Source of the DNA: Chaetoderma sp. LZ-2023a
Lineage: Eukaryota > Mollusca > Caudofoveata > Chaetodermatida > Chaetodermatidae
Assembly: GCA_034401795.1 (NCBI GenBank)
Contig: CM067369.1
Location: 90,820,579-90,884,578, forward strand
Length of the DNA: 64,000 bases
Direction of reading: 5' to 3'
A program made the translations under genes and the position numbers. The notes under the pieces are model-generated. The model saw only the letters and a list, made by a program, of their open reading frames with translations, did not search any database and had not been told where the DNA came from. Below are positions 2,807 to 61,488 of the stretch, piece by piece; the first letter of the stretch is position 1, and each line of letters opens with the position of its first letter.

Positions 2807-5800
2807 CTAGACAAAAACAATAGTTAATTATGTATACAAAGAATTCAATGATAATATCTTAAAGTGGATACGTTACAAACAAATACTCTATGGAGTCACA
2901 CATGCGCACGCACATGCCCAATACTATTTCTCCACACACACATTTGTCAAATCAAGGATTGATCACAAAACTTCAACCCATTCCCAACACTAATTTATTT
3001 TAGTATTGCATGGTTTGTCTAAGAAAAGAAATTTCCATTTTTTATATGCCCCGTCCACCTCTAGCTAAGCTTCAACCACAGCTTAATTTCCAGAAAACTA
3101 TACACGTTAGCTATGGCGGCAAGTGTCCAGTCACATTAGTTTCAAAATATTCAACAGAATGTTTATTAAATGGTAGACATACAATTTGTACGTGTCGGAC
3201 TATTAAGCATTTATGATGGCCTAAATTGAGTCATTCATACCGTAATTAATTATGACATCATCCTACGCGTTACATAGTTGATTATGATGTCATATGCCGC
3301 CAGATGATGGATGGATAAAATGGAAAGGTCGATTAAAGAGACTGCCGAAACAGAATGCTGCAATCCAAACTATGTATGAGAGCGATTCAAAGGGTTAAAA
3401 TAAAAAAAATGGTCTGATTCTATCAGCTGTTTATGATGAGCTTTCAACTTTGTGAAAACTAGGTCATCCAAGATAACGGTCAGACAATCAGGTTATCTTA
3501 AATAACGAACTCGGTTTAGCGATAGGTCTAGATTATGCTTCCTTGTGTTTGACATCAATCATGGATCTTTATAATTTAAGGATGCTTCCAAATAAATTTG
3601 GCAAAAATCAATCCATAGTTCTTCAGAAGTCGCTAAAAGGTGGACGACGGACAAATGAGATGCCACAAGCCCACTTGGCACTCTGGCCAGGATCTAGCTA
3701 ATAATAACACAGTGATATGCTGACCTGTTGGTACTGCATTTGTTGCTGAATTTGAGGCGAGTTTCCATACATGCCCATTGGTGCCATCATCTGCTGTCCA
3801 GTCATACCTGCGCCAGCCATGTTATACATCATTGGCTGAAACAAAACAAAGATACCATAATCAAGTAATCCATTAACCCTTACCACACTGATGTCAGATG
3901 TTTAAATTAAAAGATGAACTGGTGTACAGTTTTCAACAAATTTGGTGGAAGATGGTGCTGTCGAAGAAAAATAAGAAAATTTGTCAAATTTCTTTTTCAC
4001 GAGTGAGATGGCATACTTACCTCCCTAACACTCTTGATATACTAGTATATCGGCTCTAAATTCAATAATATTCAGAATTATAGTTAGGTGCCCCCTACTG
4101 GGCAGGTGGAATGTACACAGTCATGCACATGTCAGACACCACCTCTGTGCATGTGCATACTGGTACTTCCGTTACTAAATATTGGCTGACATAGAAGCAA
4201 CTATTCAAATAACCAAAGGACCAGGCCTCCGTGGGGTGGAGGCTGGGATCCTGTTACGGAGGTATGTCATCTCACTCATGAAAAAGAAATTTGATAAACT
4301 TTCTTATTTCACATCATGAGAACATACTTACCTCCCTAACACCCTTGATAAAAGCCAGAATTTGAAAGTAAATTTGGCGGGAGGGAGGCAAGGTCCTAAA
4401 AACAGTTCACCCTTGAATAGACTAGCTCTATGAATTTTCCAGAGATTTAAAACATCTGAAATTGTGTCTAAAACACAACCAGGAACAGAATTTTGCATCG
4501 GATAATCGACCGATGAAGAGATTGATCGAAAAGCAAATGCGCTCCCCCCACCCCTCTTTCTGAGGAAGGTTAGGAAAAATGCTGCTCTAAATGACAAGCA
4601 CATTCTCTAATACTTGAACAAATATTACTAGAAATCGGAAAAAGAAGAATTTGCTTCATTTTCAAAAAAATCTCTGAAAGAACCACAATTAAGAGACATT
4701 AACCATTAAATAATAACATGACACAACCAACAAGACAAAAAAAAAAATGCTCACATATACTGACCTCTGATGTCTTGAGCACGGAAATCACCTCTTCTCC
4801 CATATGGATGCAGAGAATGTAACCGGAAACAGTAGGGATTACCATACTAACAAATGTGATGTTTGTAAATAGCAGAGGAGGAAACCTAATTACAAATAAA
4901 TACCTCTGCATTATTTTCTGAGGACTGAGACGGCGAGCTGGTTGGAAGTGTCATGGAGATAATGGTTGGTAAAACTCGATTCACAGTGCCACTGGGCTAC
5001 TGACATAGTGTCTTCAACAGAAACACCATTAAATAATGCCGTGGAAGTTACCACACCATAGACACTATTAGTCCGGGAGCCAATTTTCAAAAGGGGTCTA
5101 GAAGAATGGTTTCGTAGCACACCCAGTATTCAGAAGGTTTGTCTCTATATTATGCTAGACCGATGTCTTGGGTATATTCTGAGCCGTGTTGTACAAGAAA
5201 ATTGTGGTATCACTAACCCGTGAGAAGCCCATTTACAATAGGTGTTGAATGTAGTTTTCAGACAATTTTCACAATGGTAAATTTTTCACAAACTTAAGCG
5301 CATGTTATATCAATACAATCTTAACCAAAATGGAAAGGAGTGATCGTATATCGCAGATTTATACATAATCAACCTCGTTTAAGGCACCCGTATGTTGCTT
5401 TGTACATATTGGGGCACTTAGGTCTTCTTGTGACTAGCAATACCGTAGCTACAACAATGCCCATGTTTTCTACATTTTTCATAATTAAACTTTTAACTGA
5501 CATGCAGTGCATGTCTACACAAGCTGGCAGGACATACTTATCACGTGAGCAAATGAGAGAATGTTACTCATCCGTGTCAGAGTCATCTTCGACAATTGTA
5601 TGCTGAACATTGTCACACATTTCACCTCCCATACAAAGGCATGCTTCAGTGCAGAGTAGATTGTTAGCCTTGCATTGACAGAGATCTGTTCTTTTGCAGG
5701 CAGACTTTTGACATCTACATGATGTGAGTTCAATTAATCCAAATGGAGCAGGATCCTTTGACCTTAGAACAGGCTTGAGTAGACCATCCACTATACTCCA

Positions 5801-8800
5801 GCTATGTCCATTTGGAGATGGAAGATTCTGAACAGCTTGCAATGAACGTCTCCAAACAAGAGCTTGAAAATTGGCCCTTTCGGTGTGATGCTTTAGAAGA
5901 TTTTCATTTCTTTGTCTCTTTTGACAAAAGAGCCAATAACGGGTTTCATCAGCTGTCTTTCCCACATCCCTGGTGGTATACAACTCACAGACAAATTTCT
6001 CACATAGAATTGCAGTCAACATGTTCGCCGAGTTGGGCTAAGCTAAGCTGATGACATTCAGATGACTTTAAGAGATTGAATGATTTTCTCTTAGCGAGTC
6101 CAAATAATGCACTAGTGCTATCACAACCTGTAAGAGAATGAAACCCAGGCAAAGACACACAGATAGCTGGGCCCAGTACTTGAGAAACTGTATGTATTGG
6201 AATGTATCGCAATTTGTCCTTTGTGCCCGTACGGAACCATAGTTCAGAACAGTGAAGCGAACGATACGTATATATACTAAGTACTGCCACGTCTGTATCA
6301 GGAGACTGTATAACAACACGCATGTGGTCTTTTGAAGCGTGTAGCGCGTGCAACATCATACGCGTATCTGCTTCCTCGTGATCTGATCGAAGTTCTTCCA
6401 AATACGACGAATTGTTCGCTGAAATGACAACAACATCCATTCCATCGTTAAAGCCACCAGCAAGAATAACGCAATTGTCGGCAGATAGCATATTTGGACC
6501 AGTATCACGCCACCGCTTGCTGAGAAATGTAACCAGGTTACTTTTGTTGCTTGGATTGCTGATGTACTTGGCCCATTGCTTTGGAACGGGAGTATTTTCT
6601 CCAGCAATCTTTACTTCCAATGCTGTTGATGACCTACGTTTTAGCCGCTCTTCCGCTTTGAGAGATTCCAGTCTATCATATCTGTCAAAAACTATATCTA
6701 CTCTGTTGCAGTCTTCTTGATTCAGTGGAACTGTAAAGATGTGCCAGTATTTATCAGCCAATTCTCCAAATGTAGACGTACCTCCAGTTTTAACCATTTG
6801 CACAATTGCCATGCCATCTACTACATAAGCTGTTGCGCCTGTCTTGTCAACAGGTGGAAGCCGTCCATCAACATTTACTTCCGTTTCTAGTTCACTTAAC
6901 AAAACACTTATCACATTCTTTCTTAGAGTCCCATCCGTATGTGACAATGATAGTGGAACAGCAGACAGTTCATACGTCATCACTAGTTTTAAATCAACAT
7001 CTCTGGACCTTGCGGCAATAATTAATCGACCAAATAGTTCGCGATCAGATCTCACATTGTGAAATTTTTCATCATTTGTTTTGAGTTTTTTCTTCTGTGC
7101 TAGGCTGGCAAATGTTTTAAGTTTTAAGTGTGGCAACGTGTCCCAAAAGCTTCTCGTGTTAGTGTCCAGCCGCTCCTGAACAAAATTTTCCATAATCTCC
7201 TTACCAATGTCACAGGCGGAAACAAGTCTCTTGGCGATTTCACTAGGCAATACCACGCCAGTTGCAATGTTTACAAGCGGAAGACACTCGCTGTCGTCGC
7301 TTTCCGCAATATTAAAGGCATTGGTCATTATATCTGATGAGAACATCGAAAGTATCTTCTGCACATCGGTTTCATCCCTGTTCATTCGATTAGTCCCCAT
7401 TTCCTTATGTACTCCAAACATGTGACTATCTTGTAACCCACACATTTGCTTTGTGACCGTTGTTATGGCTGCCCTCTCGTGGCTAGTTAAAAACCACCTC
7501 TCCAGAGCTCCTGGCTTTTGTGTTATTCCAATAATACCACCTCGCTTTTTGGAATCCAAATTAATCGATTGCTCTAAGGCCATATCTGTCCACACTTGAT
7601 TGAATGGATGGTCTGAGCGACTTACGGAATGATTTCCATTCAAGAATTGTTCATGTACATGGGGATGTGTACTTGGAAGCATCTTCATGTCCGCAAGATA
7701 TATTGGCAGCCATCTTGCATAATTGGTTCTGTCCATGCTGTAGAAATATGGCGCCATAGCAGCAGTAGCAGATAGGTGTGCCTGCCAATCTCCAGTTCTC
7801 TCAGCTCTTATGAATCCAAGCAGCAGCTCTCCCATATGAATATATGAGTTCCAAAATGTGAACAGGTGTGATTTCGAGCTTGACCCAACTTTAAAGGATT
7901 TGAACAGCTGTTGCAATTTATTCACGTACATACACACCTCTTTGAAATTTTCTTGCAGTGCGTCTAAGTCGTCAATGCTGCTTCGGCACATCTTAATTTT
8001 CTCATCCAGACTCTCCAAATCTGTTGGAGTAATGTGGTCTTCATGTTGTCCATTTTGTTGAACCCATTTGGAAAAAGACTGCCATTGTAATCGCAGCAGC
8101 GCTTCCAGAACCAATTTGTGAGCCCTCACTCCTCGATTATATGACTTCCCTTTAAGTAGAGCAGCAGCCGTGCTGCTACCATATGTGTTGGCCTCTATGA
8201 GGAGATCTTCTAAGCCAGAGTCATCAAACATCTTTCCAATAACAGCTAAGTAGTTTACTTGTGATGTCAAATTACAAAATTACCCCGGAACAAGTGTTAC
8301 AGGCATAATTTGAATTATATGTAGACAATGACAATGAGAGCGATGTGAGGTGTAGTATTCATTTTAATTTGTTTTTCCGCACCGATTACCACCACATCCA
8401 TCTGTCTCATTCCAACCACCATTACCTGGGTGCTTTGTCAACAGTGGTACAGCTGGATATACAGATTCTATGATGGAGTTAGTATACATACATAAAATAT
8501 AACCTTCACATTTCACCCTCGCCGTTGGTATATGCATGCAAAATGTATGTTGGATATATGTTAGGTCGATATCCGTCTAAATATCATATATGGTGAATCT
8601 AATACGATATTACTTTGAGTTATGACACGATCATGCTTATATCGTTGTGCACTGTGGATACAGCCAAAGCCTAGACCCCCTATGCAAATAAATCAGAATA
8701 ACTAATTAGTGCTACCACAATTTGTTTGTACAACAGGGCTTAAAATGTGTGGGACATGTCCCCCAAGCCACAGCAAGTGTCAGACCTTCCGAATACTGGG

Positions 8801-11800
8801 TGTGCTACGTCACGATTCTGACCTAGCTTTAGCTCCTGGACTATATGAGCCTTGGCTCTATCTACTTGTTTTCCAGTTGCTGTCTTATGACAGAATTGAA
8901 TGCATTCTACTATCCATCTGGAAATAGTGTCTCTTGACGCCCTACCATGGGGGTTCAATATATGACAACCATAGAGAGCATGGGTCAGTCCGCCAAACCC
9001 GAGTCCTTTTCTTGTACTTATTTAAGGCACGGACAGGAACCCATGCTTTAGCACCAGGATCATATCTGGTTAAGGCAGGTAAAATTATAGGTTGACCCGG
9101 ATATTTTAAAGATTGATTCTTAGCCAAGAAATTCAATCTCGGTAGAAGCTTAAGGCCTTCACCAGTAGCTATATAACAGTCAGGCTCAGCAGACAAGGCA
9201 TGAATTTCACTTCTGCGTCTGACTGATGTTGCCGCAACTAAAAATACAGCTTTAAGTGTCAATAATTTTAAAGAAATAGCACAAAGTGGTTCAAAAGGTT
9301 TATCACTCAAAACTTGAAGAACAAGAGACTCCATGACGGTGTCTGTGGAGGATTTCTCGGTCTTAGATTTCCCATACCTTTGATAAGAGTATTTAGAACC
9401 CATACTTCATCACTTCCCCTCTTTGCCAAGCAAGGGATAACAGTCATTAATGCTGATTTATATCCAGCAATAGAATTAGGCGTAAGACTATAGACATCAT
9501 ACAGGTGACAGAGAAAATCAGCTACCGTACTACCTGAATAGTTCATCCATTGGATTGATACATCTCTTTGAGCACCATTCTGCAAATCTGTTGATTTTAT
9601 AATTATATGCTCTGGAGGTTGACCCCCTTCTGGCTCTGGCCAGAAAATTGGCTGCTTGTTCAGAAAAGCCCTCCTTAACTGCAGATTTTTTGACAACATC
9701 CAAGCAGTCAATTGAAACATTGATGGATTGATGTGAAGGGTCTTGCCCTCTAAGATAATATTGTCCATCAGAGGCAGAGGAACCGGATTGCAAACCAGAA
9801 GGTTCAGCAGATCCGTAAACCATGACCGGCTTGGCCAATTCGGGCCGATCAGAAGCACTTGGCATTCCTCCCGTTTGATCTTCTGAAGAATCCTTGGAAT
9901 CAGGATTGTTGGAGGGTATTCGTATGCATACATTCCCTTCCAACTGATAGCTAGTGCATCTATTGCGATAGCGCTTGGATCTGGAATCGGCGAAACGTAC
10001 GTCGTCATCTTTACATTCTTCTTCATTGCGAATAAATCTATGTTGGGTTTCCCACAATGATTGAACAGATGATCTGCCACACATTGATTTAGTTGCCATT
10101 CCGTAAGCAGAATGCTCATCTTTCGGCTCAATGAGTCTGCTAACAGATTCAGCTTTCCCGGAATATGAACTGCTTTCAAGGTGATCATATGATCCATACA
10201 CCAGCAAACCAGTTTCCATGTCATCATACAGACTGGGTGACTTCGTTCCGCCCTGGTGGTTTATGTAACTCACTACCGTTGAGTTGTCTGAATGTATCAA
10301 CACAAATTTCCCTCCACTTCCTTTAAGAAGTGTTCCAGGCCTAGGATTACGGCTCGTAATTCTAGCATGTTGATATGCTCCTTTGACTGATCCAGATTCC
10401 AAAGCCCTGATATTGTCGCTTCTTCCAGGCAAGCTCCCCATCCCTCCAACGATGCATCCGCAAACATCGTTACTTAGGATGGGGAGGGGTCAGCATGACC
10501 CCCGCCAGGAGATTCTCTCTCCATCCACCAATGAAGTTGATGAATGAGAGGATCCAACACTTGAGTGCGCATATCCACTGATCCTGAGCTCTGCGCCCAC
10601 TGAGTCATGAGAAACAGCTGAATCAGCCACCTGCGCAAGGCCGCCTGAGGAATAACTGGTTTCATTGAAACCATCAGACCTAGCATTCTCAGATAGACTC
10701 GTGCTAGAAAATAATGACTGCTGCAAACCAATTGAATGCACGAGAGGAGATTCTCCACTCTCAATTGGGATGGATAAAACTATCCTATCTCCAGATTGAA
10801 GAACATATCCACGTAAACATACTTCTTGGATGGTCAGCTCTGATTTTTTAAAGTTGAGCCTAAATCTGTGAGAGTTTTCAAAACTATCTCCAAATTTGCT
10901 GTCTAGCTTTCTGAGTTATGTGCCTTTAGCAACCATTCGTCTATGTAAGTGTGGACCGCTATATTTCTTCTGCGGAGGAAAGCTGTGATAGCAAGGACCA
11001 CTCGAGTGAAGACCCTTGGAGCCATCGAAATTCTGAATGGGAGAACTTTGAATTCCCATTGGCATCCCTGAAAAGCAAATCTCAGGAACCGACGAAAACT
11101 CCTTGCAATGGGAATGTGGAAATAAGCATCTTTCAGATCTATCGAAGCTGTCCACATCCCCTTCTCTAACCCCAACAACACTGATTTTATTATTTCCATT
11201 TTGAAACTTGGTGTGTCTATAAACTTGTTTAGAGGTTTGAGGTTGAGAATTGGTCTCCACCCCCCGGTCTTCTTTGTCACAAGAAACACGCTTGAATAGA
11301 AGGCTGGGCAATCTTGCGCCGGTTGAATTGCTTCTTTTAGAATTAGAGATTCTATCTCCTCTTCTATGCACAACGGCTTGTCTGGATCTCTTGGAATTTG
11401 AGTCCAGACCGGTACCAGACACAGATGCAATGGCTAACCTATTATCCATTCTGGACTGTATCCGCGCGAAGACCATTGCAAGACTAAGTGGTCCAGAATT
11501 AACCGCTCCCACTCCTGAATGTGGAAAGTCAACCGACCTTGGTGCACCTAGGGTTAGCGGGGTGCACATAAATTTTAGAAGTGGGTGTGTCTCTAGTACG
11601 TGTGACAACACCAGAGTGGTACCTGTGGTAACCGAAAATTCTTTTAGGCATCCGAAAATTCTTTTAGGCCATCAGGCCTGGTTACCACATGCTGCTCCCT
11701 GTGCGCCGCGCCCAGCGCCACGCACACCGAGGTGCGTGGGCTGCTGACTGGCTAGCTGCGCTGGCTGACGTACAGCAGCATGCTGCTGCCGGCCTGTTGC

Positions 11801-14800
11801 CGGCTATGCCGGCAAGGTTTCTGAACCCGGCCGGCCTCCTAGCCTCTGACACTGCCAGCACCGCCACGAGCGTACTGCTGTCGAACAGCCGAAGGCTGAA
11901 CGCACACATGTTCTCTGTGCAACACTTCAAATTGTGCGTACAGTGCCCTCTGGTTGTTGACCAAGTTCATTGTCTCTTGGAGGTGCCGACAACCCTCACC
12001 TCCAAACAGACCAGGGCCCGCCATCGGCGCTTGCAATAAGCGCGACGAGCTCTTGGGACGGGCACAGATTGTTCAGTGCAAACGTGCGCCTTATCCTCAG
12101 TGACTTGGTCACCGACCTAGTCAAACAGTCCAACGACAGGTTGATACTATCCTGGATGGCTCGTTGGATTGTCACTGGACTAGGCTGCTGGTGAACTGAG
12201 GCTGCTACCACACCTGATAGCAGTTGAGAGACGTGAGACAGCGCACTGATTGCTGCTCGCGAACTCACCTCAGTATCATGCAGTGCGGCGTTTGCTGAGA
12301 ACATAGCGCCCGAGCTCCCGTGTCAGCACGAGAGCCTGGCCGCGTGTCTTCACCCAGAGCGGCTCGGTCGCCTGCGCTCGGTCTGGGCGCTAGACCATAC
12401 CGAGTGTACTGTCTGGCAGTAACTCGACAACGTCTAGCAACCTCGCACGGGGGGGGGGGGGGGGGCCTTTGAGAGGTGACGTTTCGGTCTATTCGACTCC
12501 TCTGCTGCAGCGAACATATCTACGATATGCTCTGCATATGGCAGCGATTGAGCCGAGGTGGCCAAGGGCTTAGCCTGTAACCACGCCCGCGGGTTACTGG
12601 CGGCCGTTTCATACACGGAGAGCTTTGGTCTGACAGCGAGGAGCCACACACACGCGTCAGACCAGTCTTCGTCCATGGCCACCTGCAAATTGCTGATGAG
12701 CAACGGGCCCTCGTCATCTTCAATGGCATTCACAGGGGGGGGGGGGGGGGAGCATGGAGGAGGCTACAGACGTACCCAACTGCCCGGGGAATGCATACGG
12801 GCCCGCCAGGGCTGGCATGACATTCTACATGGGCAGGCCGCGCACCGGGGCCTCGCTCGTGTGATGGGCATATGCCACACTAGCGCACTCCGGGTCGTCC
12901 GTATAAGATTCCACAGCTAATTGTGGTATCTTATACGGGCGGCAGTCCGCTCCAAATCGGCCCACAGGTTGAATCATGAAACCCGCTCCCGAGGGAATGA
13001 TACCATAAGCGCGAGCATCCGTACTACCCATGAGGGGCATGTAAACGCTCGCATCAATGGTTTCATGATCGTCCCGTGGGTCGAGCAGCAGGTAGCCTTC
13101 GTCATCTTCCTGGTCAGAAAAGTCAGACTCTGGGTTAGCAAAGAAAACTACCCCAGACTGACCAGAAGGCCCGTAGGCAGATGACGAGGGTACTCCGCGA
13201 GGGATCGTGGTCAGGCCCGCTGGTTGGGTCCCGCCTGATGCTACTTGCGCCGCTGGTTCACCAAGCCATGCGAACATAAAGCCTGGGTCCAAGTCGGCTA
13301 CCCCTGGATCACTGAAAGCTTTGTTCGAAATAAGAGGGCATGATACAGGGATGGGGGCTACCTGCACTAAGTCGATGCGCAGGAAGTTGAAACATGTCAG
13401 GCATCAGGTCCTTCAAAGTCCTGTGTATCTCACTCACATAACTCTACCTTGAAGGCCTCCAGCTCACCTTTCTCGGAGGCCTTCTTACCCTTCTCCCCCT
13501 TCCTCACCCTCTTGCTGCCATCCACCATCATCTTCGCCTGAGAACAGAAGAATTCAGAGGTTAGATCCCCCTCACTCTTTACAAATGGCACATTTGTTAG
13601 ATAGCCTGCAATCAGTGCAAGATGGGCAGAGGTGGTTGAAGAATCTAGCCTTAGTTGATTCAGACAAGACGGACATGATGACTTCTGCAAAGGTAGACAT
13701 ACGAAGAGAATGAGTATTTTAGTTTGTTCATAACATAATAATGATAATGACATCGAGATCCTCTTTGTAAAAAACAAGATTATGATGTCAAGGAAAAGGG
13801 AAAAACTGGCTGATTATGACACCTCAATGCAAAAGCCCCTTCAAGGGGAGGAGATATCAGATTATGAATGCAAGAAATACCTAGGACTACATACAATCAT
13901 CACTCAAGAATAATATAATACTATAATTATATATCTGAGAACCCATGCACAACCACAAGAAAGAATACAGTGCAATAAGGATGGCAGCAAAGACTGATAA
14001 AAATTTCAAATAATTAGGTGCCATAACTAATGAACTCCCTTACCCTGAAAACAGGTAAACAATCCTCTTGTGCAGAAATCACGTCCCTACCATCTGCCGA
14101 GTCTGTAGTCTGATGAAAGGGATGGGACAAAAGGAGGGATATTTTTTGTTTTATATCTCAGACCCTTAGACAACAGATGATAAGTCAGAAACAAGAGCCA
14201 TCAGAAGACGGTATATCACCCCGGATCCAAGCATTTCAGATAAACAAACATCATAGCTAAACTGTAGGAGTTGTGTTGACATCTTGAAATGATTGCCAGA
14301 GATGGACGGACCGACAGACTGACACACATACATTCGATACAGATGCATGGATGTACAGGCATACGGATAACACATGCGCATCCTCAAGCGGTAATGAGAA
14401 TCCTTACTAAGTTTCAATAGAATTACAGCTAAATTGTAGGAGTTGTGCTGACAAGAAATGATTGGTATTGCAGTTTATGTATCTGCTTAAAGGTATTTAA
14501 AGGGAGATAACGCTGTAATGAATAATTTTCTGGCCGCGAAAAAAGCACCTGCACATCTTCAGATGGTAATGACTAGATTTACCATGTTTCAAAAGAAATG
14601 TAACTAAACTGTAGGAGCTGCATTGACAAGGATGGAATGACAGACGAACACACATTTTGGACAGATAGAATGATGTACAAGTATACGGATAGCACATGCA
14701 CATCTTCATGTCATAATGATAACACTTACCAAGTTTCAAAAGAATCGCAGTTAAACTGTAGGAGGAGTTGCGTTGACAAACGATTGGCAATGCAGTTTAT

Positions 14801-17800
14801 GTATCAGCTTTAAGATATTTAAAGGGTGATAACCCTGTAATGAATAATTTTTTGGCCGCGAAAAAAGCACATGCACATTTGCACATGATACTGATAATGT
14901 GGACAAAATTTAAAGTTAATCCATTGAGACTTCTACGAGTTGCATTGACAAGAAATGATTGTCAGCGATGGATGGACTGACAGACGGACATACATACATT
15001 TTGGACAGACGGATGGACGTACAGGTATAAGGATAACACATGATACTGATGTGGACAAAATTTAAAGTTACTTCATTGAGACCTCTAGGAGTTGCGTTGA
15101 CAAGAAAAGACTCTCAGAGATGGATGGATTGACAGATGGACATACATACATTTTGGACAGACGGATGGACATACAGGTACACGGATATCACATGCACACC
15201 TACACGTGGTAATGATAACACGTAGCAATTTTCAAAAGAATCGTAGCTAAACTGTAGGAGTTGAGTTGACAAGAAATGATTGGCAATGTAGTTTATGTAT
15301 CAGCTTTAAGATATTTAAAGGGTGATAACTCTGTAATGAACAATTTTTTGGCCACGAATTAAGAAAATTTATCAAATTTCTTTTTCACGAGTGAGATGAC
15401 GACATACTTACCTCCCTAACACTCTTGATATACTAGTATATCGGCTCTAAATTCAATAATATTCAGAATTATAAAAAGTTAGGTGCACCTAATGGCCAGG
15501 TGGAAGTACACAGTCATGCACATGACAGACACCACCCACTGCGCATGCGCACACCGGTACTTCCGTTACTAAATATTGGCTGACATAGAAGCAACTATTC
15601 AATAACCAAAGGACCAGGCCTCCGTGGGGTGGCAAGGCCGGGATCCTGTTAGGGAGGTAAGTATGTCATCTCACTCGTGAAAAAGAAATTTGATAAATTT
15701 ACTTATTTCACATCATGAGAACATACTTACCTCCACTCTTGATAAAAAAACCAGAATTTGGTAGGGAGGCAAGGTCCTGAAAACCAGCACACCCTCGAAG
15801 AGACTAGGCTCTGAATTCTCAAGAGATTTAAAACATCTGAAATTGTGACTGAAACACAACCAGGAATAGAATTTTTGCATTGGATAATCGACCGATGAAG
15901 AGAGATTGATCAAAAGGCAAAATGCACTCCCCCCCCGGTAACAAATCCTGAACCGTCAAAGTTTTTTCAACCGCAAAAATGGGCACAACGGGTTAAAAAC
16001 TCACAACTGGTAAAAATGACCACAACCGCCAAAAAAGGCAGAACCGGCAAAACACTTACAACCGGTAAAAAACTGCCAAAACTGGCACAACTGGTAAAAA
16101 AGTCACAACCGCCAAAAAACGGTCACAGGCCGCCAAAACAGGCCAACCGGTAAAATGTTTGGCCAGGCCGCCAAACCCCAAAAAAATTCCAAACGGTTGA
16201 ACCGCCAATCTGGTTCATTTCTGCCCATATAAAGTCAAGATCGACTCAATCCACAGGCTCGCCCAGGAAGGGTATAAAAGGGAAGAAAATTCCAGTCCAG
16301 ATCATTCAGACTTTTGGTCTCACATCGAGACCAAGCGTCAGGCTTAACAACCTTCGACGAGTAGCTCATATAACTGACTACGTTGTTATTATCTATCATT
16401 TCACAATTGATTCATCCAGCAAACTGTTGCCACAGGAAACGGAGATAATCACAATACCTCCGCTGTCCACACTGAGTCTAAACTCAGCAGGTTCGGACAT
16501 GCAAGCCGCCAGGTCTACACAGACCCGAATGCCACCAAAAACAACCGGTAACAATTACAATCGGTGAAGTTGACCACAACCGCCAAAAAAAGTTGCCCAA
16601 CCGCCAAAAATGGCAGAACCGGCAATAACCATCCATAAGTATGTAGGGGAAAATACGCCCCTCTAAATTCAGAATCCAATGACATCTCAGATTGATATCA
16701 AACCGCCATAGGTATCCTCATCAGACCTGGACGATGAAAACTCCACGTCATGGAGAACACAGAAAGAATGTCTTTGGATACACCAGCTCCACCCAATGGA
16801 GCCTATAGGCACAAACCGAGCAGGATAAGGGACTCACTTTCCCTGGACCAACACGCCCACCACGGGCGGACACGCCCAGTATGTTGTTATTATTCAATTA
16901 TGTTATTCTGTCGAGAAAGTAGCATATATTGTAATATATTTTGTCATCAGGTCGAGTAACAACGATTCTCAAAAATAGCAATGAACAAGAAGACGTTAAC
17001 AATATTGTAAATTCAAAATCCATCGAATAAAACAAGATGGCCGACGAAGTCAGAACCATTTGGCCACTCAAGTTCTCTTGAACAAACTTGGTTCAGCTAA
17101 AAAATCTATCAAAATCCAAATTAGCTGATTGCATCTCAATGCCATAAGGATGCTTCCTGCCAAATATAATTGAAATCAGCCCAGTGGTTCTTGCGAAGTC
17201 ATTTAACGAAAAGGTTCACCAGAAATGTGGTTGCACGCAATGCTCGACTTTACGACTGCAATGAATTATGAAGCTTGAGTTCGAACAAGAGGCCTAAGGG
17301 CCTGTAATGCTCACCTGGACCATTAGCATTTGAACCACTTGCATTTAAATACAGGTAGACGTGATGGGTAGTTAAAAAAATATCCAAGATGCCACCAAAG
17401 AAATTGAGCAATCAAAATTCTCGTTTGATCTGTTGATGCCTACTGACATAGGATCAGTCCACCCAAGTTTCATTGAAATTGGGCTAGTAAGGAATAGCAT
17501 TTTAAATGGTTTTGGAAAATATAAAAAAATCCAAATGGGCACCAAAAAAATAGTCCAAATAAAATCCTGAATAGAAGTTAAAGAGCCTACCATTATAGAA
17601 TCCCTCCAGCAGAATTTGGATAAAATCCAACAAGCGGTTAAGGAGGAGATGCATTTTGACAATTTCCTGAATTTTTTTCCATAAAATCATAGATTTTCTG
17701 ACAAAAAAATTGACCAATCAAAAAACTGTAATTAGAAGGCAGGAAAACACATCAAGAGGTATGAGTGGACAGCTGATGATGGAACCAATTGGCATGTACA

Positions 17801-23800: not shown

Positions 23801-26800
23801 TGCACACTTTATAGTTGCTTTCAAAGTGTAAGATTTACATGTAAGAAAAATCAACAGAACGCAAAATACAATCATGTCAACCAAATCAAAAAAGAAAAAT
23901 TAACTCTGCCTGACCTTGTTATTAATTGAAATTGCTAAAGTTCTCTAGAATTAAAAAGAACAAGAACGACAATCAGATTACTAAAGTATGACCACCATTC
24001 CGTCAAGCACAACCTCCTACCAAAGATTGGTCACCGTGACCTTGACCTCAAAATCGAAACACCAAGGACAACATCCCACCCAAGATTAGTAATGATCCCT
24101 TCAATCGAACTCGAGTTATCATCCGGAAACAATATTACATCATTAATTAGGTCATTGTGGCCTTAACCTTTGACCCTTTGGCGCAAAAATTGATATGGCT
24201 CTTCAGACTACCAAGAACAAGCTCCCACACCAGATTGGTAATGATCCCTTCAATAGAACACAAGTTATCATCCGGAAACGCAATATTACATAATTCATTA
24301 GGTCACCGTGACCTTAATCTTTGACCGTTTGATGCTGAAATGGATAGGGTTCTTTGGACCACAAATGACAAGCTCCCATGCCAGAGTGGTAACGATCCCT
24401 TCAATAAAACTCGAGTTATCATCCGGAAATGAAACCTGAATGGACGGACAAAGCAAACGCTATATAACCCCATATATTTAGGGGGGGGGGGGCATAATTA
24501 TGTTCGTCGATTATTTCCTAACATTCTGTAACTAAATATATACTTGGTATTTCATGACAGACTCAGGGTTTGCAGTGAAAGAAAGAAAATTATATGGCGA
24601 GTCAACAAAGTAACTAGCTGGTTTTCTCAATGACACTGGTGTTACCTCGCTGTTGTTAGCTTGTTTATCGTAGCGGTTTGCGGTGTAATTAGTCAACATG
24701 TGCATGGCACAGTGGAATATAAACACAATGTACACACGCCTGAATTGATTATAATTGTACTCATGTACTGCTAAAATGCGACGGAAAAGTACACACCTTA
24801 GACTTTAAACAGACATGAAATTTTTGACGATTTTCCGATTTTACCTCAATTACATCTAAAATAAATCGAACTTCACGATTAAATCGAAACAGCGCTCAAG
24901 CATACAATGAACCTTCAAGTTGAGCTAAGCGCAAAATATTATTGTTGAAATTTTGTTTGTCATTATAACACTGACCTTGACCTTTTGATGTCAAATGATT
25001 GTGTCATCCCCTCTCATTACAAGGAAGCATATGTCCATATTTGTGCCCTGTATGTAGTGTTACATGACGGTTTTATGTTATATCGCGATATTTTGGTATC
25101 AACAAAACCATATCGATATGACTAACTGTATAGCTATGATAACAGTATTCTTTATAATATAGGTACACCATCAAGCCCTGCCTGTATGCTTAACCAAACA
25201 TTAGATATAAATTGCTACGTTGAGCTAAACACAAAATCCAAAAGTTTTATCAAGGACACAGTGACCGTGACCATTTCACCAAATGTGCCATGTGTCATGC
25301 CCTCACATTATAAAGCAGCGTGTGTCAAAGTTTGGATCCAGCATGATTAAGCAAACATGACACATAAATGGCAACAGGAATTCCACGGAATGAAATGTCT
25401 CGCCTGTCACCTGTCTGTCACAGTGGCATTGACCTTTGACCTTGTGACCGCCATGTTATCATGCTGCTCCTAACATTATAGGTAACAATCTATTCAAGCT
25501 TAGTTCCAATAGGATTAACCAATCCTGAAAGATAAATGATTTGCTGAATGTAAAAACTTATGGTTCAAAAAGCAGAGCTAATATATCAATATTAGAATGG
25601 CCTTGACTTTTGACCTAGTTTAGTCCATGTCGCCATCCTTTATCCTCTTGGCATAAGCAACCATGTACCCCAGTTGCGTTCCATTAGGGTTAAGCAATCC
25701 CGAAATATAACATAAGATTTGGTGAGGCTAAAAACGTAACAATGTTTTGTAGAGGACAGAATGACCGTGACCTTCGACGTTGTCACTTCAGTGTCAGCAT
25801 GCTGCTTCCTAACATTATAGGTAACACTGTATCCAAGTTTAGTTCCAATAGGAACAACAAATCCTGAAAGATAAGGCAAGACGTTTTGCTTAATGCAAAA
25901 ACTTAAAACTTGTATCAAGGTCAAGTGTGTCCAAGTTTTCATTCAGTATGCTTAAACCAACATGAGATATGAACTGCTAAGTTGAGCTAAATGTAAATTG
26001 TTAATGTTGAAAAAATAAGGCTTTACCAATGCCAGTGACTGTAACCTTTGACCTCTTGACCCAATGACATTGCAGGAAATGTCAATTTCCCTTTCTCCGA
26101 GATCTAACAATACTCACCATTCTGTTACTTCTGATATACAGCTGGCCCTGACAGCAGCTCTAGGATTATAGACTTAGAAAGCTTTACCGACTCCTGGGAA
26201 CCGTGTACTCGGCTCCCAACTGCCGAGTACCCGTTTACCATAGAGCTCATATTGTTTGCATAGCCACCAAACAAGAGAAAACTATGGCTTGCCTCCGTGG
26301 GGCTGGGAGGCTGGGTCCGTAACAGAATGGTGAGTATTGTTAGATCTCGGAGAAAGGGAAATTGACATTTCCTGCATTCTCCTTCGATCAATACTCACCA
26401 TTCTGTTACTTCTGATATACACCAGATTTGATCAGTAACCTGGTGGGAAGGGGCAAGCCATAAATGCAAATTTTGCCCCTTGGAGAAAGATTTTAGACTT
26501 CAAACTTGACTAACGGAGACCTAAAAGGACCGTCAAGTTCACGGAACCGAATCACATTCGCGTCACAGTCCCCCACCCTTTTTCCTCCTAAGAAAAGGGA
26601 GAGAACTAACGAACATGTATCTCGCCTGAAAACACAAATATGCCAAGAGGGTTAACTGCTCCCTGCATACTCCATGTATTAGCCTGGGAATGAGCATGAA
26701 TATATAAGATGAATGAACATGATACATATCCATAATACAAAAAACTCTCACTATTGAATTACCTTATGATAATTGGACTTCAGACGTACCGCCTCCAACC

Positions 26801-29800
26801 ATTCACCGGTTCGGCCATCAGTGACACAATCTGGTTGACATCCTCTCGCCTGACCATGCCTGCTTTAGGTTCTTTTCTTACCGAAGTGAGAAAAGGGTGA
26901 AAAGCAGTGTGGTCACTAACTATCGTTTCAAAACAGCTAAAGCGAGTGGATTGGCTGAGTCTGACACATCCCTCATATAGTAATCCGTGAATGAGGACTC
27001 ACAGTGCCATTGTGCAACGGCCATGATGTCCTATAACGGAACACCATTGTAAAGGGCGGTCGAGGCGGCTATTCCTCTGACATTGTCTGCCCTTACGCCT
27101 TGCACCTGGTGCCCAGTCGCCATCTCGTGAGTAGTCTGAATGCATTCGACCACCCAACGAGAGATAGTATCCATGGATGCGGTGCCATAAGACTTTTTAT
27201 GGCAGATCCACAGATGTCTATCGTTCGACCGTAACGAGTCAGTCCGTTTCTTGTACTTAGTCAAAGCACGGACCGGGCACCAGACACTGGCATCACGATC
27301 AAACCTAGTTAACTTCGGTATAATGATCGGTTTGCCGGGATATCTCAAAGATTGGTTCTTTGACATAACCTCTGCTCTTGGCAGAAGACGCAGACCTTCT
27401 CCAGAAACAATAAATCGGTTCCTCTCTGCCGAAAGCGCATGGATCTCACTGCGCCTTCTAGCTGAGGAAGCTGCCAATAGAAAGACCGCCTTTAGAGTCA
27501 AATGCTTTAGACTAGCCGAACGCAACGGTTCGAAAGGGTGCTTGGCCAGTACATTAAGCACTAAAGATAGACTCCAGGCTGGAATGACTACCGGTTGTCT
27601 CGGTCGGAGATTGCTCATTCCCTTCAACATCACATTTAACTGGGCCACCTCTGGACTATCCCTGTTGGCTAGACAAGGGATAACTGATGCCAAAGCTGAT
27701 TTGTATCCAGCAACTGTGACGGGAGCTAGTCCTCAAAAGAACAGCTCACAGAGAAAGTCTGCTATTTGCGGATAGTGGATTGAAAGGTATAAATACCCTT
27801 TTCTTCACACCAGTCTGCAAATCTGTTAACCTTGTTGTTATATGACTTGAAGGTTGACCTCCTTCTCGCAGCCGCGATGAAATCAGCAGCCTGTCGAGAA
27901 AAGCCTTCCGACGTGGAACGTTGTTTGATAACATCCACGCAGTCATTGAACATTTCGGGACGCTCGTGTAGGAAGCGTCCCTTGGCCTGGGAGATTATGT
28001 TCGGAATCTCGGGCAATTGCACAGGATTTTCCACCAGCAGATCTAGAAGATCCGTGAACCACGCCCTGCTCGGCCAATACGGCGCTATTAGCAGGACCAG
28101 ACACGGTTCCTCCCTGACCTTCACCAAAACCTTCGGTAGAAGAATGGTGGGTGGGTACGCGTAAGCGTGCATCCCTCTCCAGCTTATCGCCAGAGCGTCT
28201 GTATCGACGGCATTTGGATCTGTAATCGGCGAGACATATGTCATGATTTGAGCATTTTCCTTTGTGGCGAACAAGTCCACGTTGGGTTTGCCCCAATGCT
28301 CGAAGATCCGTCGCAGAACTGGAGGGTTGAGGGACCATTCTGTTGGCAGGATTCTCTGTCTGCGAGACAAAGCATCCGCCAGAATGTTCAATCGGCCAGG
28401 AATACGAGCTACTTTCAAAACAACCGAGTAATTCCTGCACCATTGAATCAAGTGCCACACCCTGATACACAGAGTGGGCGACCTGGTCCCGCCTTGGCGA
28501 TTTATATATGATACTACTGTCGAATTGACCGACCGTATCAATATCACCCTGCCCCTGATCATCGGAAGGAACTCTTCCAACGCCAGTTCCACTGCCATCA
28601 TTTCCAACAGATTGATATGCAGCTGACTCTCCGGGAGAGTCCATGTGCCCGAGACCTGGTTCTCCCAGGCAGGCACCCCACCCTTCCAGCGATGCATCCG
28701 TGTAGACGGACAGCTGGGGCCGGGGTAGGTGCAGCGAAACCCCTAATAGGAGATTCTGACGCTGTTTCCACCATAGAAGATGCGATATTATCGGCTCCAA
28801 AACTGGCAACAGTTTTGACAGGGGTTCTGTTCTCTGTTTCCACAGAGACATCAGATACAACTGGATAGGCCTTCGCATTAGAGCATCGTACGGGATAACC
28901 TGCTCCATGGAGACCATCATGCCCAGCATCTGAAGGAACCGCCTCGCCTTGAATGTGGTTTCCCACTCGAAAACTCTTGAGGATGGCTAACAGAGACACC
29001 ACTCTGGGCTCTGACGGGTAAACCCTGCCCTCCTCGAGGTCGAATCGCATCCCCAAATAAACGAAACGTTGAGTGGGCGTCAACTCGGATTTCTCCTCGT
29101 TGACTATGCAGCGTAGATCTGAAAGTAACTTCAGAGTCAGAGCAGTATCCACGTTCAACCTGGCTGCCGAGTCTGCCTTAAGCAGCCAGTCGTCTATGTA
29201 GGTGTGTAGCGCCACGTTCTCTTTTCTGAGAAACGCTGTCACCGCAAGGACCACTCTTGTGAAAACCCTCGGAGCTGTCGACAGGCCAAACGGGAGACTG
29301 TAAACTCCCATACTTGATTTTGAAACGCAAATCTCAGAAACCTGTGCCAACTCCGATTCATAGGAATGTGGAAATATGCATTTTTCATATCGATCGATAC
29401 ACACCACATTCCTTTCCTCAATCCCGCATTACCGACCTCGGCGTTTCCATCTGGAACCGAGGCGTATGGATAAACCAATTTAATGGCCTGAGATTGAGTA
29501 TGGGTCTCCATCCCCCTGTGCTCTTGGGGACAAGGAACATGTTTGAATAGAAGCCTGGAGTGTTTCGATTTGCTGGTTTTATTGCTCCCTTCAGAAGCAA
29601 ACCTGACACTTCCTTTTGAACGGCTTCTAACTTGTCTGGCTCCCTTGGTACGGGTGTCCAGACAGGTGCCAAAGACAGATTTTGTGGTGGAAAGTCCCAC
29701 CACTCCGGCATGTAACCCTGGGATAACCATCCCAGGACCAGACTGTCTGACGTCACACCTTGCCAGGCCTCGACGAAACGCATGAGCTTTCCACCCACCA

Positions 29801-32800
29801 TAGACGCCTCGACGTCTAACGGGGTTGTCCGGCTTGCAGTCCGCCCCCCCACACCCCACTCTTTCTTAACGAGAGAGAGAGAGAACCATTTCGTTCTAGG
29901 CACGACGGGTATAACTGGCACCGCTGTTCCTGTCGCACAGGCGCGGTCCAGGCGGATATGAAGGGAGCTTTCGTACCCTCAGGTACGCTTCGGCCCCTTC
30001 TGTCCGCCCTTTGAGGCCTTACCCTTACCCTTCCCCTTCCCGCCTCTAGGGCGGTCAGGAGCAACATTGGGGAGGGTAGGCGCCTCTACAACCTTCCTGG
30101 GCTTCTTCGCCGGCCGAGGCTCTGAAACCCCAGCTGAAGCAGAAGTCGCAACAGGCCTAGCTTTCGCCTTGCCCGTATGCTTCTTCTGCTCCTTTGAAGG
30201 TTGTCCTGTTAGCGGTTTCCCCACAGGCCCTAGTGCATGCGCTTGCCGCACTAGCTCTAGCTGTAGGTTTACCGCTAACCGATTCTGCGCGATACTGGCG
30301 GTATCCTCTAAGATGGCCCACGCTTGGCCACCGAAGATGCTAGGCCCTGTCAGGGGTGTCCCAAGGAGACGCTCTCTGACTGCCGTAGCCGGACGCATAT
30401 GGTCAATGACCATTTGCCTCCTGGATTTCGTCACACGCGCTTGCACCCTTGCCAATGCGTCCATCGACAGCACCAGGCCGTCATTGACACATGAAAGCGC
30501 CACAGGTGGCACAGGGTGGCCTGCCCCGCTTCAGCCCACACCGACTGAAGGAGACGATAAGAGTGGTTGACAGCGCTCATCGCTGCCCCCACACCCTCAT
30601 CGCATAGGGACAGGACTTCTTCCTGGTGTACCTGAGACTTGTCCACAAGTGCCGGACCGGGGTGACCCGGCACGGCACTCTGGACGCCCAGTACCCATCG
30701 GTCATCCTCCGTGACCGACGGGACTACACCATACCTGTCGTATTCCCCCCGCGGAATACGACATCTTGCCCGCACCTCCCTGGAGGCCGCAGGGAGCTGA
30801 CCCTTGGTCATCAGTTGTTTGCTATAAATAGCATCCAACCATTCTATGAACCGTGGATCCAGTCCCACTGACTGGATCCGGGCCGCGGGCAAAATCCCCG
30901 TCCTGATCGACGCAACCGACGGACGGGGCGCATCTTCATCGGCCGTGGCCGAAACCACAGACGGGTCAACCCTGGCTAGCCACGCCAGAGCATCTGACCA
31001 ATCTACCTCCGATGAAGACACCCCCGCAAACACGTCACCCGTTGACGTGCTCACGGGTCTGCCAGCCACGGCCTCCCAGCAAGGAGCCACGGCTGACACG
31101 CCAGGCACTCCGGTACCACACGGTTCCGCCGCCACCCCATGAACGGTCCATGGGGTAGGTCCGCACGGAAAACCGTACGGACCCGTAGCAGTCGCGGAAC
31201 CATAGCCGGACACGGGCGCCCACGGCACCCCACGTCCGACTGCCGGACCAGGCGAGATAGGTGAGTACCACGCCCGGCCCGGCACACCCGTTCCCGTGAC
31301 GGCTGGTGCCAAACCAAGCCGCACGGAACCGGTGCACGGTAACGGATTTGCCTCAGCCACAGGCGGAGCCGCTGACCTGGCTTGCGCCAAACCAGACAAA
31401 TGGAGGCCGGTTCCGTCTAGGACGGAATCAACCTCCATATTCTCCACCTGCGGCTTCACGGGCCGCAGCAACCTCTCTTCCTCGGCCTCCTCGTCTTCAG
31501 ACTCCGAAGAGTCGTCACTAGACGAGTCAACCGTGGAACCGTCCTGGCGGACAGCTCCCACACCTGACGGACCGGCCACCGCTACTGGACCACCCGGAGG
31601 TGGCCGCAGAGAAACAGAAACCCGTCTGGCCGAAGCCAGACGGGACTGCCAGGGGGCCGTACGAGACGGCCCCCTCAGTAACCAGTCCAGAATCCTGTCC
31701 GAGGACAGGATCCGTACCAGGCATGGGGAGAAACTGCCCCCCAACCTTTGGTAGCAGGGACGACACCAGCGTGGTCAGAACGCTATGCAGAAAATCCCTG
31801 CAGAGCCGGACCAAACCACGCCGTCGGTGCCATCTTCGCCACCTCCAGCTGGGGACGTGGAGCACCCGCACCGGCTGAACCGGGCGCTCCACGATTTACT
31901 CTCGGACCGCCTGACCCCGCGTCAGACCCAGCCAAGTCCTTCTGGGCAAGGAACGTAACCATCGTTTCGACGGACCACACTGCACAAACATTACACCTAT
32001 GATCTATATTACACAGGGCACACCTAAAACAGACATGGTCCTTGAACATTACACGGACAAACTTATGGCAGTCGTCACATGATGGCGGGGCTGGCTTGGC
32101 CTATAAAATAAGCACAAACCTACAATAAACAAGCGGAACGAGACCCGGATGGAAGGCAGACAATTAATTTTCAAATAATTTGACTCATAAATTAACCGTA
32201 ACCTCCCCGCACCCCACCCCGCCACGTTACAACAACGATCGCATTGATTATGACGACAAGTACGCGGCGGGCACAACACACCCATAATAGATCCTCCAGG
32301 ATGTGTAACGGCTCCAGGAATCATATCGCATAGCATTCAGGGTATATTTACTAATCAATATAAATTATACTCCTAACGAACGCAGCACGATATGTGAAGA
32401 AAACAACAAAATGTATAACAAAACTGCTGTCTCACACGGTAAAACCGCAGACCACACATCTACTCAAGAATTTTGAAACCACCGATCATTGCAAACCGAT
32501 CGTGATCGCACGTAAACTTGATCATTCTAAAGTTTCCGGTACCATTTTTAGTACGCAGCACCCAGAATAAGATGCGCGAATTAATGAAAAATTTTTCTTC
32601 ACATAAACATCCGAGCGACCGGGTGTGACGTCACCCGCTCGGATTCTACGGAGAACGACGTCAGCCGATATTCGTGTTAGAAATACCGTAGCAAACACCT
32701 ATTTTCATATCTACCGATCGCCTGTTGGGGTTTAAAGAAGGCGATCGTCTGGCATATATCGTTGTTAGCACACGTCCCAGATTCTATGGGGTCATAAATT

Positions 32801-35800
32801 GGAACATGCGACACAACGAAATTTAGAGACCTAAGTCTTTTAACTATGGATAATAAAGAACAATACAACCTGGTTGTCTTGGGCGGTATTCTCCATAGTC
32901 CTTAGTTAATCCTTTCAGAACACACAAACTATCACTGATTAAAGACTTAGATTATTTTAAAACACTAAAATCCTTAATGCAAAAAGCATGTATTGCTCTT
33001 GTCGCTATGCAAACAAGAATGAGCTCTATGGTAAACGGGTACTCGCAGTTGGGAGCCGAGTACCCGGTTCCCAGGAGTCGGTAAAGCTTTCTAAGTCTAT
33101 AATCCTAGAGCCGCTGTCAGGGCCAGCTGTATATCAGAAGTAACAGAATGGTGAGTATTGATCGAAGGAGAATGCAGGAAATGTCAATTTCCCTTTCTCC
33201 GAGATCTAACAATACTCACCATTCTGTTACTTCTGATATACAGCTGGCCCTGACAGCGGCTCTAGGATTATAGACTTAGAAAGCTTTACCGACTCCTGGG
33301 AACCGGGTACCCGGCTCCCCACTGCCGAGTACCCGTTTACCATAGAGCTCATATTGTTTGCATAGCCACCAAACAAGAGAAAACTATGGCTTGCCTCCGT
33401 GGGGCTGGGAGGCTGGGTCCGTAACAGAATGGTGAGTATTGTTAGATCTCGGAGAATGCAGGAAATGTCAATTTCCCTTTCTCCGAGATCTAACAATACT
33501 CACCATTCTGTTACTTCTGATATACAGCTGGCCCTGACAGCGGCTCTAGGATTATAGACTTAGAAAGCTTTACCGACTCCTGGGAACCGGGTACTCGGCT
33601 CCCAACTGCCGAGTACCCGTTTACCATAGAGCTCATATTGTTTGCATAGCCACCAAACAAGAGAAAACTATGGCTTGCCTCCGTGGGGCTGGGAGGCTGG
33701 GTCCGTAACAGAATGGTGAGTATTGTTAGATCTCGGAGAAAGGGAAATTGACATTTCCTGCATTCTCCTTCGATCAATACTCACCATTCTGTTACTTCTG
33801 ATATACACCAGATTTGATCAGTAACCTGGTGGGAAGGGGCAAGCCATAAATGCTAATTTTGCCCCTTGGAGAAAGATTTTAGACTTCAAACTTGACTAAC
33901 GGAGACCTAAAAGGACCGTCAAGTTCACGGAACCGAATCACATTCGCGTCACAGTCCTCCCCCCTTTTTCCTCCTAAGAAAAGGGAGAGAACTAACGAAC
34001 ATGTATCTCGCCTGAAAACACAAATATGCCAAGAGGGTTAACTGCTCCCTGCATACTCCATGTATTAGCCTGGGAATGAGCATGAATATATAAGATGAAT
34101 GAACATGATACATATCCATAATACAAAAAACTCTCACTATTGAATTACCTTATGATAATTGGACTTCAGACGTACCGCCTCCAACCATTCACCGGTTCGG
34201 CCATCAGTGACACAATCTGGTTGACATCCTCTCGCCTGACCATGCCTGCTTTAGGTTCTTTTCTTACCGAAGTGAGAAAAGGGTGAAAAGCAGTGTGGTC
34301 ACTAACTATCGTTTCAAAACAGCTAAAGCGAGTGGATTGGCTGAGTCTGACACATCCCTCATATAGTAATCCGTGAATGAGGACTCACAGTGCCATTGTG
34401 CAACGGCCATGATGTCCTATAACGGAACACCATTGTAAAGGGCGGTCGAGGCGGCTATTCCTCTGACATTGTCTGCCCTTACGCCTTGCACCTGGTGCCC
34501 AGTCGCCATCTCGTGAGTAGTCTGAATGCATTCGACCACCCAACGAGAGATAGTATCCATGGATGCGGCGCCATAAGACTTTTTATGGCAGATCCACAGA
34601 TGTCTATCGTTCGACCGTAACGAGTCAGTCCGTTTCTTGTACTTAGTCAAAGCACGGACCGGGCACCAGACACTGGCATCACGATCAAACCTAGTTAACT
34701 TCGGTATAATGATCGGTTTGCCGGGATATCTCAAAGATTGGTTCTTTGACATAACCTCTGCTCTTGGCAGAAGACGCAGACCTTCTCCAGAAACAATAAA
34801 TCGGTTCCTCTCTGCCGAAAGCGCATGGATCTCACTGCGCCTTCTAGCTGAGGAAGCTGCCAATAGAAAGACCGCCTTTAGAGTCAAATGCTTTAGACTA
34901 GCCGAACGCAACGGTTCGAAAGGGTGCTTGGCCAGTACATTAAGCACTAAAGATAGACTCCAGGCTGGAATGACTACCGGTTGTCTCGGTCGGAGATTGC
35001 TCATTCCCTTCAACATCACATTTAACTGGGCCACCTCTGGACTATCCCTGTTGGCTAGACAAGGGATAACTGATGCCAAAGCTGACTTGTATCCAGCAAC
35101 TGTGACGGGAGCTAGTCCTCAAAAGAACAGCTCACAGAGAAAGTCTGCTATTTGCTGATAGTGGATTGAAAGGTATCAATACCCTTTTCTTCACACCAGT
35201 CTGCAAATCTGTTAACCTTGTTGTTATATGACTTGAAGGTTGACCTCCTTCTCGCAGCCGCGATGAAATCAGCAGCCTGTCGAGAAAAGCCTTCCGACGT
35301 GGAACGTTGTTTGACAACATCCACGCAGTCAATTTGAACATTTCGGGACGCTCGTGTAGGAAGCGTCCCTTGGCCTGGGAGATTATGTTCGGAATCTCGG
35401 GCAACTGCACAGGATTTTCCACCAGCAGATCTAGAAGATCCGTGAACCACGCCCTGCTCGGCCAATACGGCGCTATTAGCAGGACCAGACACGGTTCCTC
35501 CCTGACCTTCACCAATACCTTCGGTAGAAGAATGGTGGGTGGATACGCGTAAGCGTGCATCCCTCTCCAGCTTATCGCCAGAGCGTCTGTATCGACGGCA
35601 TTTGGATCTGGAATCGGCGAGACATATGTCATGATTTGAGCATTTTCCTTTGTGGCGAACAAGTCCACGTTGGGTTTGCCCCAATGCTCGAAGATCCGTC
35701 GTAGAACTGGAGGGTTGAGGGACCATTCTGTTGGCAGGATTCTCTGTCTGCGAGACAAAGCATCCGCCAGAATGTTCAATCGGCCAGGAATATGAGCTGC

Positions 35801-59812: not shown

Positions 59813-59838
59813 TACACCTGTGCAAAAGTTAAGCACCA
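59813..59838 (+). repeat. Tc1 left terminal inverted repeat
   Basis: TACACCTGTGCAAAAGTTAA and six further bases, matching the right end. Confidence 0.9.
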
Positions 59839-60137
59839 CCCTATTTTTTACGCACATGCGAGGGTATATTCATGTGCTATGAAGAAAGCAATAGCATAAA
59901 CATTTATGTACCCATCCATCTTAGTGCAAGAGGCAATAATGCAACTAGAGGAATGCTGATTATGATGGTGGGGAAACACTGTATGTTTTTGTTTGAACTT
60001 GAAAACGAGGCCTGAATATGGTTACGTTGACACAACTGACAACTATTGCCCTACAGTTGACACACGTGGCTAGATTGTCATTAATGGTGTCTGAAAACAA
60101 AGTTTAACATCTGTGCACGAGTTTGAGACTGTCATTA

Positions 60138-61175: not shown

Positions 61176-61460
61176 AGCGGTTCACAATCAAGAGCTAATT
61201 CTCTCTGTACAAATAAACCACGGTCATGAACACAAAATTCCTAATCTTGTTGTCTAAATCTGTATGTAATGTTCTACACCTCAAACTGGACTTTTACATA
61301 ACTGAACACGTGTGCTGTTTCCTGCCACGCACGGACATCAAGCGGCGTGAAGTCATGCATGCATGTGCATTTTGTACTTGGAATTATGTCAGCTAACGCG
61401 GGGACAAAAAGTATGGCAGCCTAGTTGTACCATCATGTTTCTACGTTCTATTGTTTTTGC

Positions 61461-61486
61461 TGGTGCTTAACTTTTGCACAGGTGTA
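61461..61486 (-). repeat. Tc1 right terminal inverted repeat
   Basis: Reverse complement of the left repeat, followed by the TA duplication. Confidence 0.9.
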
Positions 61487-61488
61487 TA

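Follow-up and report, generated by a model that had tools for sequence, protein, structure and literature searches.

Within a 64,000-nucleotide stretch of the genome of the caudofoveate mollusc Chaetoderma sp. LZ-2023a (GenBank assembly GCA_034401795.1, contig CM067369.1, positions 90,820,579 to 90,884,578 of the forward strand; hereafter, the window), the 3.8 kb segment at 5069-8843 is a genuine DNA transposon insertion within an older mobile element of the DIRS type. We propose that this insert is probably an internally deleted, non-autonomous copy of an AcademX-type transposon in whose protein a DDE-type transposase and an XPG-like nuclease are joined. The borders of the insert, the reading of the interrupted DIRS element and the comparison of its protein with a longer relative bear on this proposal, as do the motifs of the two presumed enzymatic regions.

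To examine the borders, the left end was aligned locally to the reverse-complemented right end, each extended by 27-28 bp of flank. The best alignment (score 106) begins exactly at 5069 and 8843 and spans 148 bp on the left and 138 bp on the right (Table 1); the homology is imperfect, with 72% identity over a 114-bp core, and 10 of the outermost 11 bases are identical between the two ends. By comparison, 1,000 shuffles scored 38 at most, and 958 pairs of stretches drawn at random from the window all stayed below 106, the best of them at 101. The motif TAGTCCRGGAG has exact matches in the window at the two element ends only, and a single one-mismatch site was found at 37819. An earlier reading of the window from its letters alone (the sequence-only reading) had described inverted ends of 63-73 bp; the ends are real, but the actual repeat is longer and less regular. 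The TAT triplet that it had noted at both sides is present, and among flank lengths of 1-9 bases only 1 and 3 agree.

The insert interrupts a DIRS-like retrotransposon copy presumably limited by 0.6-kb repeats (3969-4549 and 15357-15934) that are 86.5% alike. Because Pfam searches of two 233-amino acid (aa) DIRS frames and one 154-aa frame returned no family, the DIRS label was based on the reverse transcriptase match of a neighbouring frame together with recombinase-like sequence, which we take to be of the DIRS type. Two further DIRS-like copies lie in tandem at 26071-33172 and 33457-40570, about 7.4 kb apart and 96.8% identical over 7.1 kb, with repeated pieces of 0.1-0.4 kb near 26.1-26.4, 33.0-33.8 and 40.4 kb. 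For an empty-site test, the recombinase reading of the host was aligned, with the insert removed, to both tandem copies, the copy at 27 kb being the best match every time. With the insert and 3 bp (one TAT) removed, the reading scores 246 and is gap-free at the junction, while removal of 0, 6, 1, 2, 4 or 5 extra bases gives scores of 240, 235, 174, 123, 172 and 121, respectively. The 3-bp solution was chosen because of its gap-free fit, the margin being small, and frame alone cannot separate 0, 3 and 6. At the DNA level the DIRS copies are too diverged, and the rejoined site aligned over no more than 36 bp, short of the junction. The recombinase does resume in register across the insert, as had been claimed, and reconstruction of the empty site within the window favors a 3-bp duplication, by that small margin and at one site. 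The host reading contains stops and frame changes; the host DIRS copy is itself decayed, and the mobile unit is younger than the copy it interrupts.

Inside the element, two frames on the minus strand overlap in different phases, one continuing the protein of the other (Table 1). Over the 756 codons of the main frame, the other two frames hold 44 and 54 stops. The second frame carries a Cys-rich CXC-like domain at approximately 5609-5722, for which the Pfam TCR/CXC match (E = 0.011) lies below the cut-off. The window copy is frame-shifted ahead of this Cys-rich end, and its gene is broken there.

Relatives of the protein were sought by scanning genome contigs with a pattern based on HEEADTR, which returned three stretches (L007, L008 and L009). 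L007 is a 6.5-kb contig, filed under a metagenome-assembled genome of Planctomycetota, with one uninterrupted frame, 1,466 aa long and open at its 5' end; its product is 37% identical to the main frame of the element over 755 alignment columns and 39% identical to the second frame over 132. In L008, a contig from a Bathymodiolus gill symbiont assembly, this protein is spread in pieces over three frames, and L009 gave no match at E 0.1. When the L007 protein was compared to the window by tblastn (E up to 10), residues 587-1301 matched at 8249-6015 and residues 1308-1456 at 6010-5567; residues 1-586 had no counterpart inside the element, and the three remaining matches of the protein lay outside it at E 2.5-4.1. 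Homology to L007 starts in the middle of the protein, seven codons inside the frame of the window copy, and 573 bp remain to the end of the element, 138 of which are terminal repeat. Nothing in these 573 bp matches L007, and they are too short for the missing part. Because the homology begins mid-protein and the remaining space is too short, the window copy is, on this comparison, very probably an internal deletion derivative. An intact full-length transposase gene, the mark of an autonomous transposon, is absent, as the copy is frame-shifted and the N-terminal half of its protein is gone. Two descriptions in the sequence-only reading have to be given up accordingly: the "single intronless protein region" consists of two overlapping frames and lacks its N-terminal part, and the implied picture of a FEN1-like nuclease as the only protein of this transposon is not supported, since the L007 protein extends for at least 586 more residues on its N-terminal side, DDE-like Asp motifs among them.

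These N-terminal residues suggest what the deleted part encoded. In L007, the motifs FDNID (from residue 340), VVLDEAIY (from 549) and GAFH (from 578) all fall in the part absent from the window copy, and DMAIEQ, with Glu799, falls in the part common to both. The order Asp, Asp, FH motif and Glu looks like a DDE transposase core, an assignment that is a motif reading on one sequence (L007). The window copy has none of the DDE-like Asp motifs; only the candidate third acidic residue is present. Similarity to the Pfam domain DUF6589 covers L007 residues 559-760 (approximately 4233-4838, minus strand). DUF6589 as a transposase domain is a possible lead, and a search for DUF6589 in the literature collection consulted found no paper.

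The part of the protein that the window copy retains likely, though not provenly, includes a FEN1/XPG-like nuclease. This was assessed by an ordered-block test that used five FEN1 blocks and six FEN1/EXO1 sequences as reference. The window protein and L007 jointly scored 102.5; among 5,000 column shuffles the highest score was 75.3, and the reversed columns scored 32.8. For the C-terminal region, the score was reached by 4 of 2,000 shuffles (window) and by none of 2,000 (L007); for the full-length proteins, by 2 of 600 and 1 of 400, respectively. N-terminal control regions were unremarkable, with 605 and 145 of 1,000 shuffles attaining their scores. Like the FEN1/EXO1/XPG 5' nucleases, the window protein has Asp179/181-like and Asp233-helix-two-turn-helix-like blocks in the same order, and the EAD of HEEADTR also occurs in the EXO1 sequence; unlike them, it has no significant hidden Markov model (HMM) or profile match, and its more N-terminal blocks fit poorly. 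The FEN1/XPG-like motifs that had been pointed out are present, scoring above all 5,000 shuffles, but at the level of motifs, the HMM/profile comparison being weak. PF00867 (XPG_I) was absent from the record of L001, with 4 of 14 controls positive.

Table 1. Coordinates of the element, its candidate functional residues and its host within the window.
Feature	Position	Strand	Basis
Left TAT target-site duplication copy	5066-5068	.	Flank comparison; 3-bp removal best in DIRS register test
Left imperfect terminal inverted repeat, starts TAGTCCGGGAG	5069-5216	+	End alignment
Right imperfect terminal inverted repeat, inward reading starts TAGTCCAGGAG	8706-8843	-	End alignment
Right TAT target-site duplication copy	8844-8846	.	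Flank comparison; DIRS register test
Main open frame, 756 aa: putative end of DDE-like region and FEN1/XPG-like nuclease region; shorter at the 5' side than L007	6000-8270	-	Open reading frame list; L007 comparison
Second frame, 152 aa: C-terminal part of transposase-like protein, Cys-rich CXC-like domain and acidic tail	5564-6022	-	L007 comparison (39% identity, 132 columns)
12-residue motif partly conserved with L007, its Glu the candidate third catalytic acidic residue of DDE triad	7560-7595	-	Putative role
Asp of VVDGMA (L007: IFDAMA), candidate FEN1 Asp34	6816-6818	-	Low block score of 3.8 (L007 7.7)
Asp of VFDRYD, candidate FEN1 Asp86	6684-6686	-	Block score -2.5 (L007 -2.8); motif resemblance only
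HEEADTR, candidate FEN1 Glu158/Glu160	6360-6380	-	Block score -0.2 (L007 0.2)
QSPDTDV, candidate FEN1 Asp179/Asp181	6288-6308	-	Block test
Candidate FEN1 Asp233 and following helix-two-turn-helix	6069-6143	-	Block test; profile comparison
Host DIRS-like retrotransposon copy interrupted by the element	3969-15934	-	Outer limits presumed from terminal repeats

The family of the element was approached through its features. The Academ superfamily and its AcademX lineage were reportedly described by Kapitonov and Jurka in 2010 and Kojima in 2020, and the AcademX nuclease is of the XPG type. Here, TAT stands on both sides of the element, with 3-bp removal best at this one site, and the motif-block test for a nuclease was positive, the HMM/profile comparison being weak and no Pfam family matching. 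In PMC10045372, AcademX is described as having duplications of 3 or 4 bp and AcademH duplications of 9 or 10 bp, tied to an encoded nuclease and an encoded helicase, respectively. Because the 3-bp duplication and likely nuclease match this description, membership in AcademX is probable, although not proven, the assignment having been made from these features. Inverted ends are a further likeness to AcademX in that account (PMC10045372); on the other hand, the window copy is without the front half of the protein and is frame-shifted, and its ends and protein are likened to AcademX by description only. The same limit applies to the Academ guess of the sequence-only reading, which fits in its duplication and nuclease. 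AcademH would belong to the same superfamily, if the assignment holds, but differs in its longer duplications and its helicase, again as given in PMC10045372, while the window element has a 3-bp duplication and nuclease motifs and no helicase was found among the Pfam matches of the window frames or L007. Academ has been amplified in bivalves, according to PMC10294476, which suits L008 and does not identify the window element. A literature search for Academ together with XPG, judged partly by title, returned nothing pertinent.

An undescribed superfamily, distinct from Academ, in which a DDE-like core, an XPG-like nuclease and a CXC domain are arranged in this way, is an unlikely alternative that draws on the fact that the likeness to Academ is known by description only and that no Pfam, NCBIfam or PHROG family convincingly covers the protein. 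Set against it, the 3-bp duplication and encoded nuclease are both AcademX features in PMC10045372. In its fullest form, this alternative would be a separate superfamily in which a divergent DDE core is combined with a FEN1/XPG-type nuclease and a CXC domain for DNA binding in a single polypeptide of approximately 1,500 residues. We consider this a doubtful proposition; if true, flap or donor-strand processing would be built into the transposase itself.

Several results weigh against our proposal of a deleted AcademX copy with a fused DDE-XPG protein. For the DDE region, the best Pfam match of the L007 N-terminal half, DUF6589, is sub-threshold at E = 0.003 (two others, E = 0.079 and 1.1), and structure prediction of the region from two sequences gave an unusable predicted local distance difference test (pLDDT) score of 31.5. 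For the nuclease, two of the five blocks carry signal, namely SPDTD (Asp179/181) and TGCD plus the helices after it (Asp233), and the registers of Asp34, Asp86 and Glu158 fit poorly: the automatic chain sets the Asp86 block on the hand-assigned Asp34 motif and the Asp34 block elsewhere, and it shifts the Glu158 block by three residues from the hand-assigned position. In hmmsearch with a FEN1/EXO1 profile, the window protein reached E = 0.036, its best stretch (78-116) lying outside the nuclease region, and L007 reached E = 0.074; profile-profile comparison with hhalign gave E = 0.1 and a probability of 0.6% over 29 columns, in the Asp233 region only. For the nuclease region by itself, the predicted structure was likewise unusable (pLDDT 30.5). 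The window frames matched no Pfam or NCBIfam family above the cut-off and no PHROG below E = 0.2, and phmmer against PDB sequences returned one unrelated match only (E = 0.35). Finally, the family is represented by a single relative of 37% identity, the L007 contig holds the 3' side only, no end resembling that of the element was found in L007 or L008, and a search of the window showed just one copy of the element. In that search (blastn), the only match besides the element itself and its own ends was one of 22 bases at 58556 (E = 0.005); tblastn matches elsewhere in the window were all at E 0.45 or worse.

We also considered whether the element is complete as it stands, with a FEN1/XPG-like nuclease as its sole enzyme and moving without a DDE transposase. 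The long frame, open to its stop where the other two frames are closed many times over, and the availability of a candidate residue for each FEN1 motif class would both suit such an element, but the upstream extension of L007 in one frame, the start of the window frame in the midst of the homology and the frame-shift before the C-terminus make it improbable. It is less probable still that the N-terminal half comes from an upstream exon inside the element, with the copy intact there and split by an intron: a minus-strand AG does precede the start of homology and could serve as an acceptor site, but the L007 protein matches nothing in the short interval left before the element end, and the frame-shift would still be there. 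That a chance pair of inverted repeats surrounds a decayed gene in no mobile unit, as a single copy with imperfect repeats might suggest, is hardly credible, since the terminal match starts exactly at the DIRS break and removal of the insert with 3 bp restores the reading; this candidate was rejected as contradicted by the empty-site reconstruction.

Under our proposal of a deleted AcademX copy, a cut-and-paste DNA transposon would have entered the older DIRS element and duplicated 3 bp, TAT, at its target. Its intact parent would have a single protein, approximately 1,450 or more residues long, whose N-terminal half holds a DDE-type transposase core, followed by the FEN1/XPG-like nuclease and then a Cys-rich, presumably DNA-binding, domain. 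In such a protein, the DDE core may recognize and cut the inverted ends and join them to target cuts staggered by 3 bp, the nuclease may trim flaps or the donor, non-transferred strand, and the CXC-like domain may bind DNA, with repair filling the gaps to leave TAT at both sides. The window copy no longer encodes at least 586 N-terminal residues, among them the two putative first Asp residues, and would be unable to act itself; this loss, together with the frame-shift before the Cys-rich domain, would render it non-autonomous. It may either have been mobilized in trans or have decayed after insertion. As a dead derivative, well bounded and of an ordinary kind, the copy has more value as annotation than as discovery. 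A type of protein that has no name in Pfam or NCBIfam, and that is presumably widespread in invertebrates, is now tied to a bounded mobile unit, and the fused layout of L007 raises the testable question of which role a FEN1/XPG-like nuclease plays in DDE transposition and in the 3-bp stagger.

L007 and L008 were both found in bacterial assemblies, and we infer that they are animal or other eukaryotic DNA within them. For L008 this is helped by five reverse transcriptase matches in its assembly, one of which shares 38% identity with the DIRS of the window across 312 residues. It is not helped for L007, whose genome gave no reverse transcriptase match and whose base composition (0.384) lies near the 0.40-0.42 of three other contigs. 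No Tc1 match was found in the genome of L007 or of L008. The Bathymodiolus gill symbiont assembly (genome G003; L008 1-3431) contains transposon and reverse transcriptase contigs resembling host mussel DNA. Searches of 83 genomes of the family of the L008 genome and 397 of the class of L007 gave one match each, L008 and L007 themselves, and a protein search of plasmids and phages with the L007 protein gave no match. Among viral contigs, some pattern scans returned no stretch, others returned 44 and 101 stretches, none of which was confirmed by tblastn, and two scans returned three stretches each, one set aligning over 9-19 residues at E 0.16 or worse and the other giving no match at E 0.1.

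The window holds other repetitive features. A Tc1-type transposon that may be recent lies at 59811-61488, where perfect 28-bp inverted repeats surround a 347-codon open frame with Pfam DDE_3 and HTH_Tnp_Tc3_2 above the cut-off. Diverged local clusters of direct repeats, approximately 70-89% alike, are found at 14262-15358, 45317-46413 and 50364-50977, and a large imperfect palindrome at 52363-53234 matches its own reverse complement at 73% over 0.87 kb.

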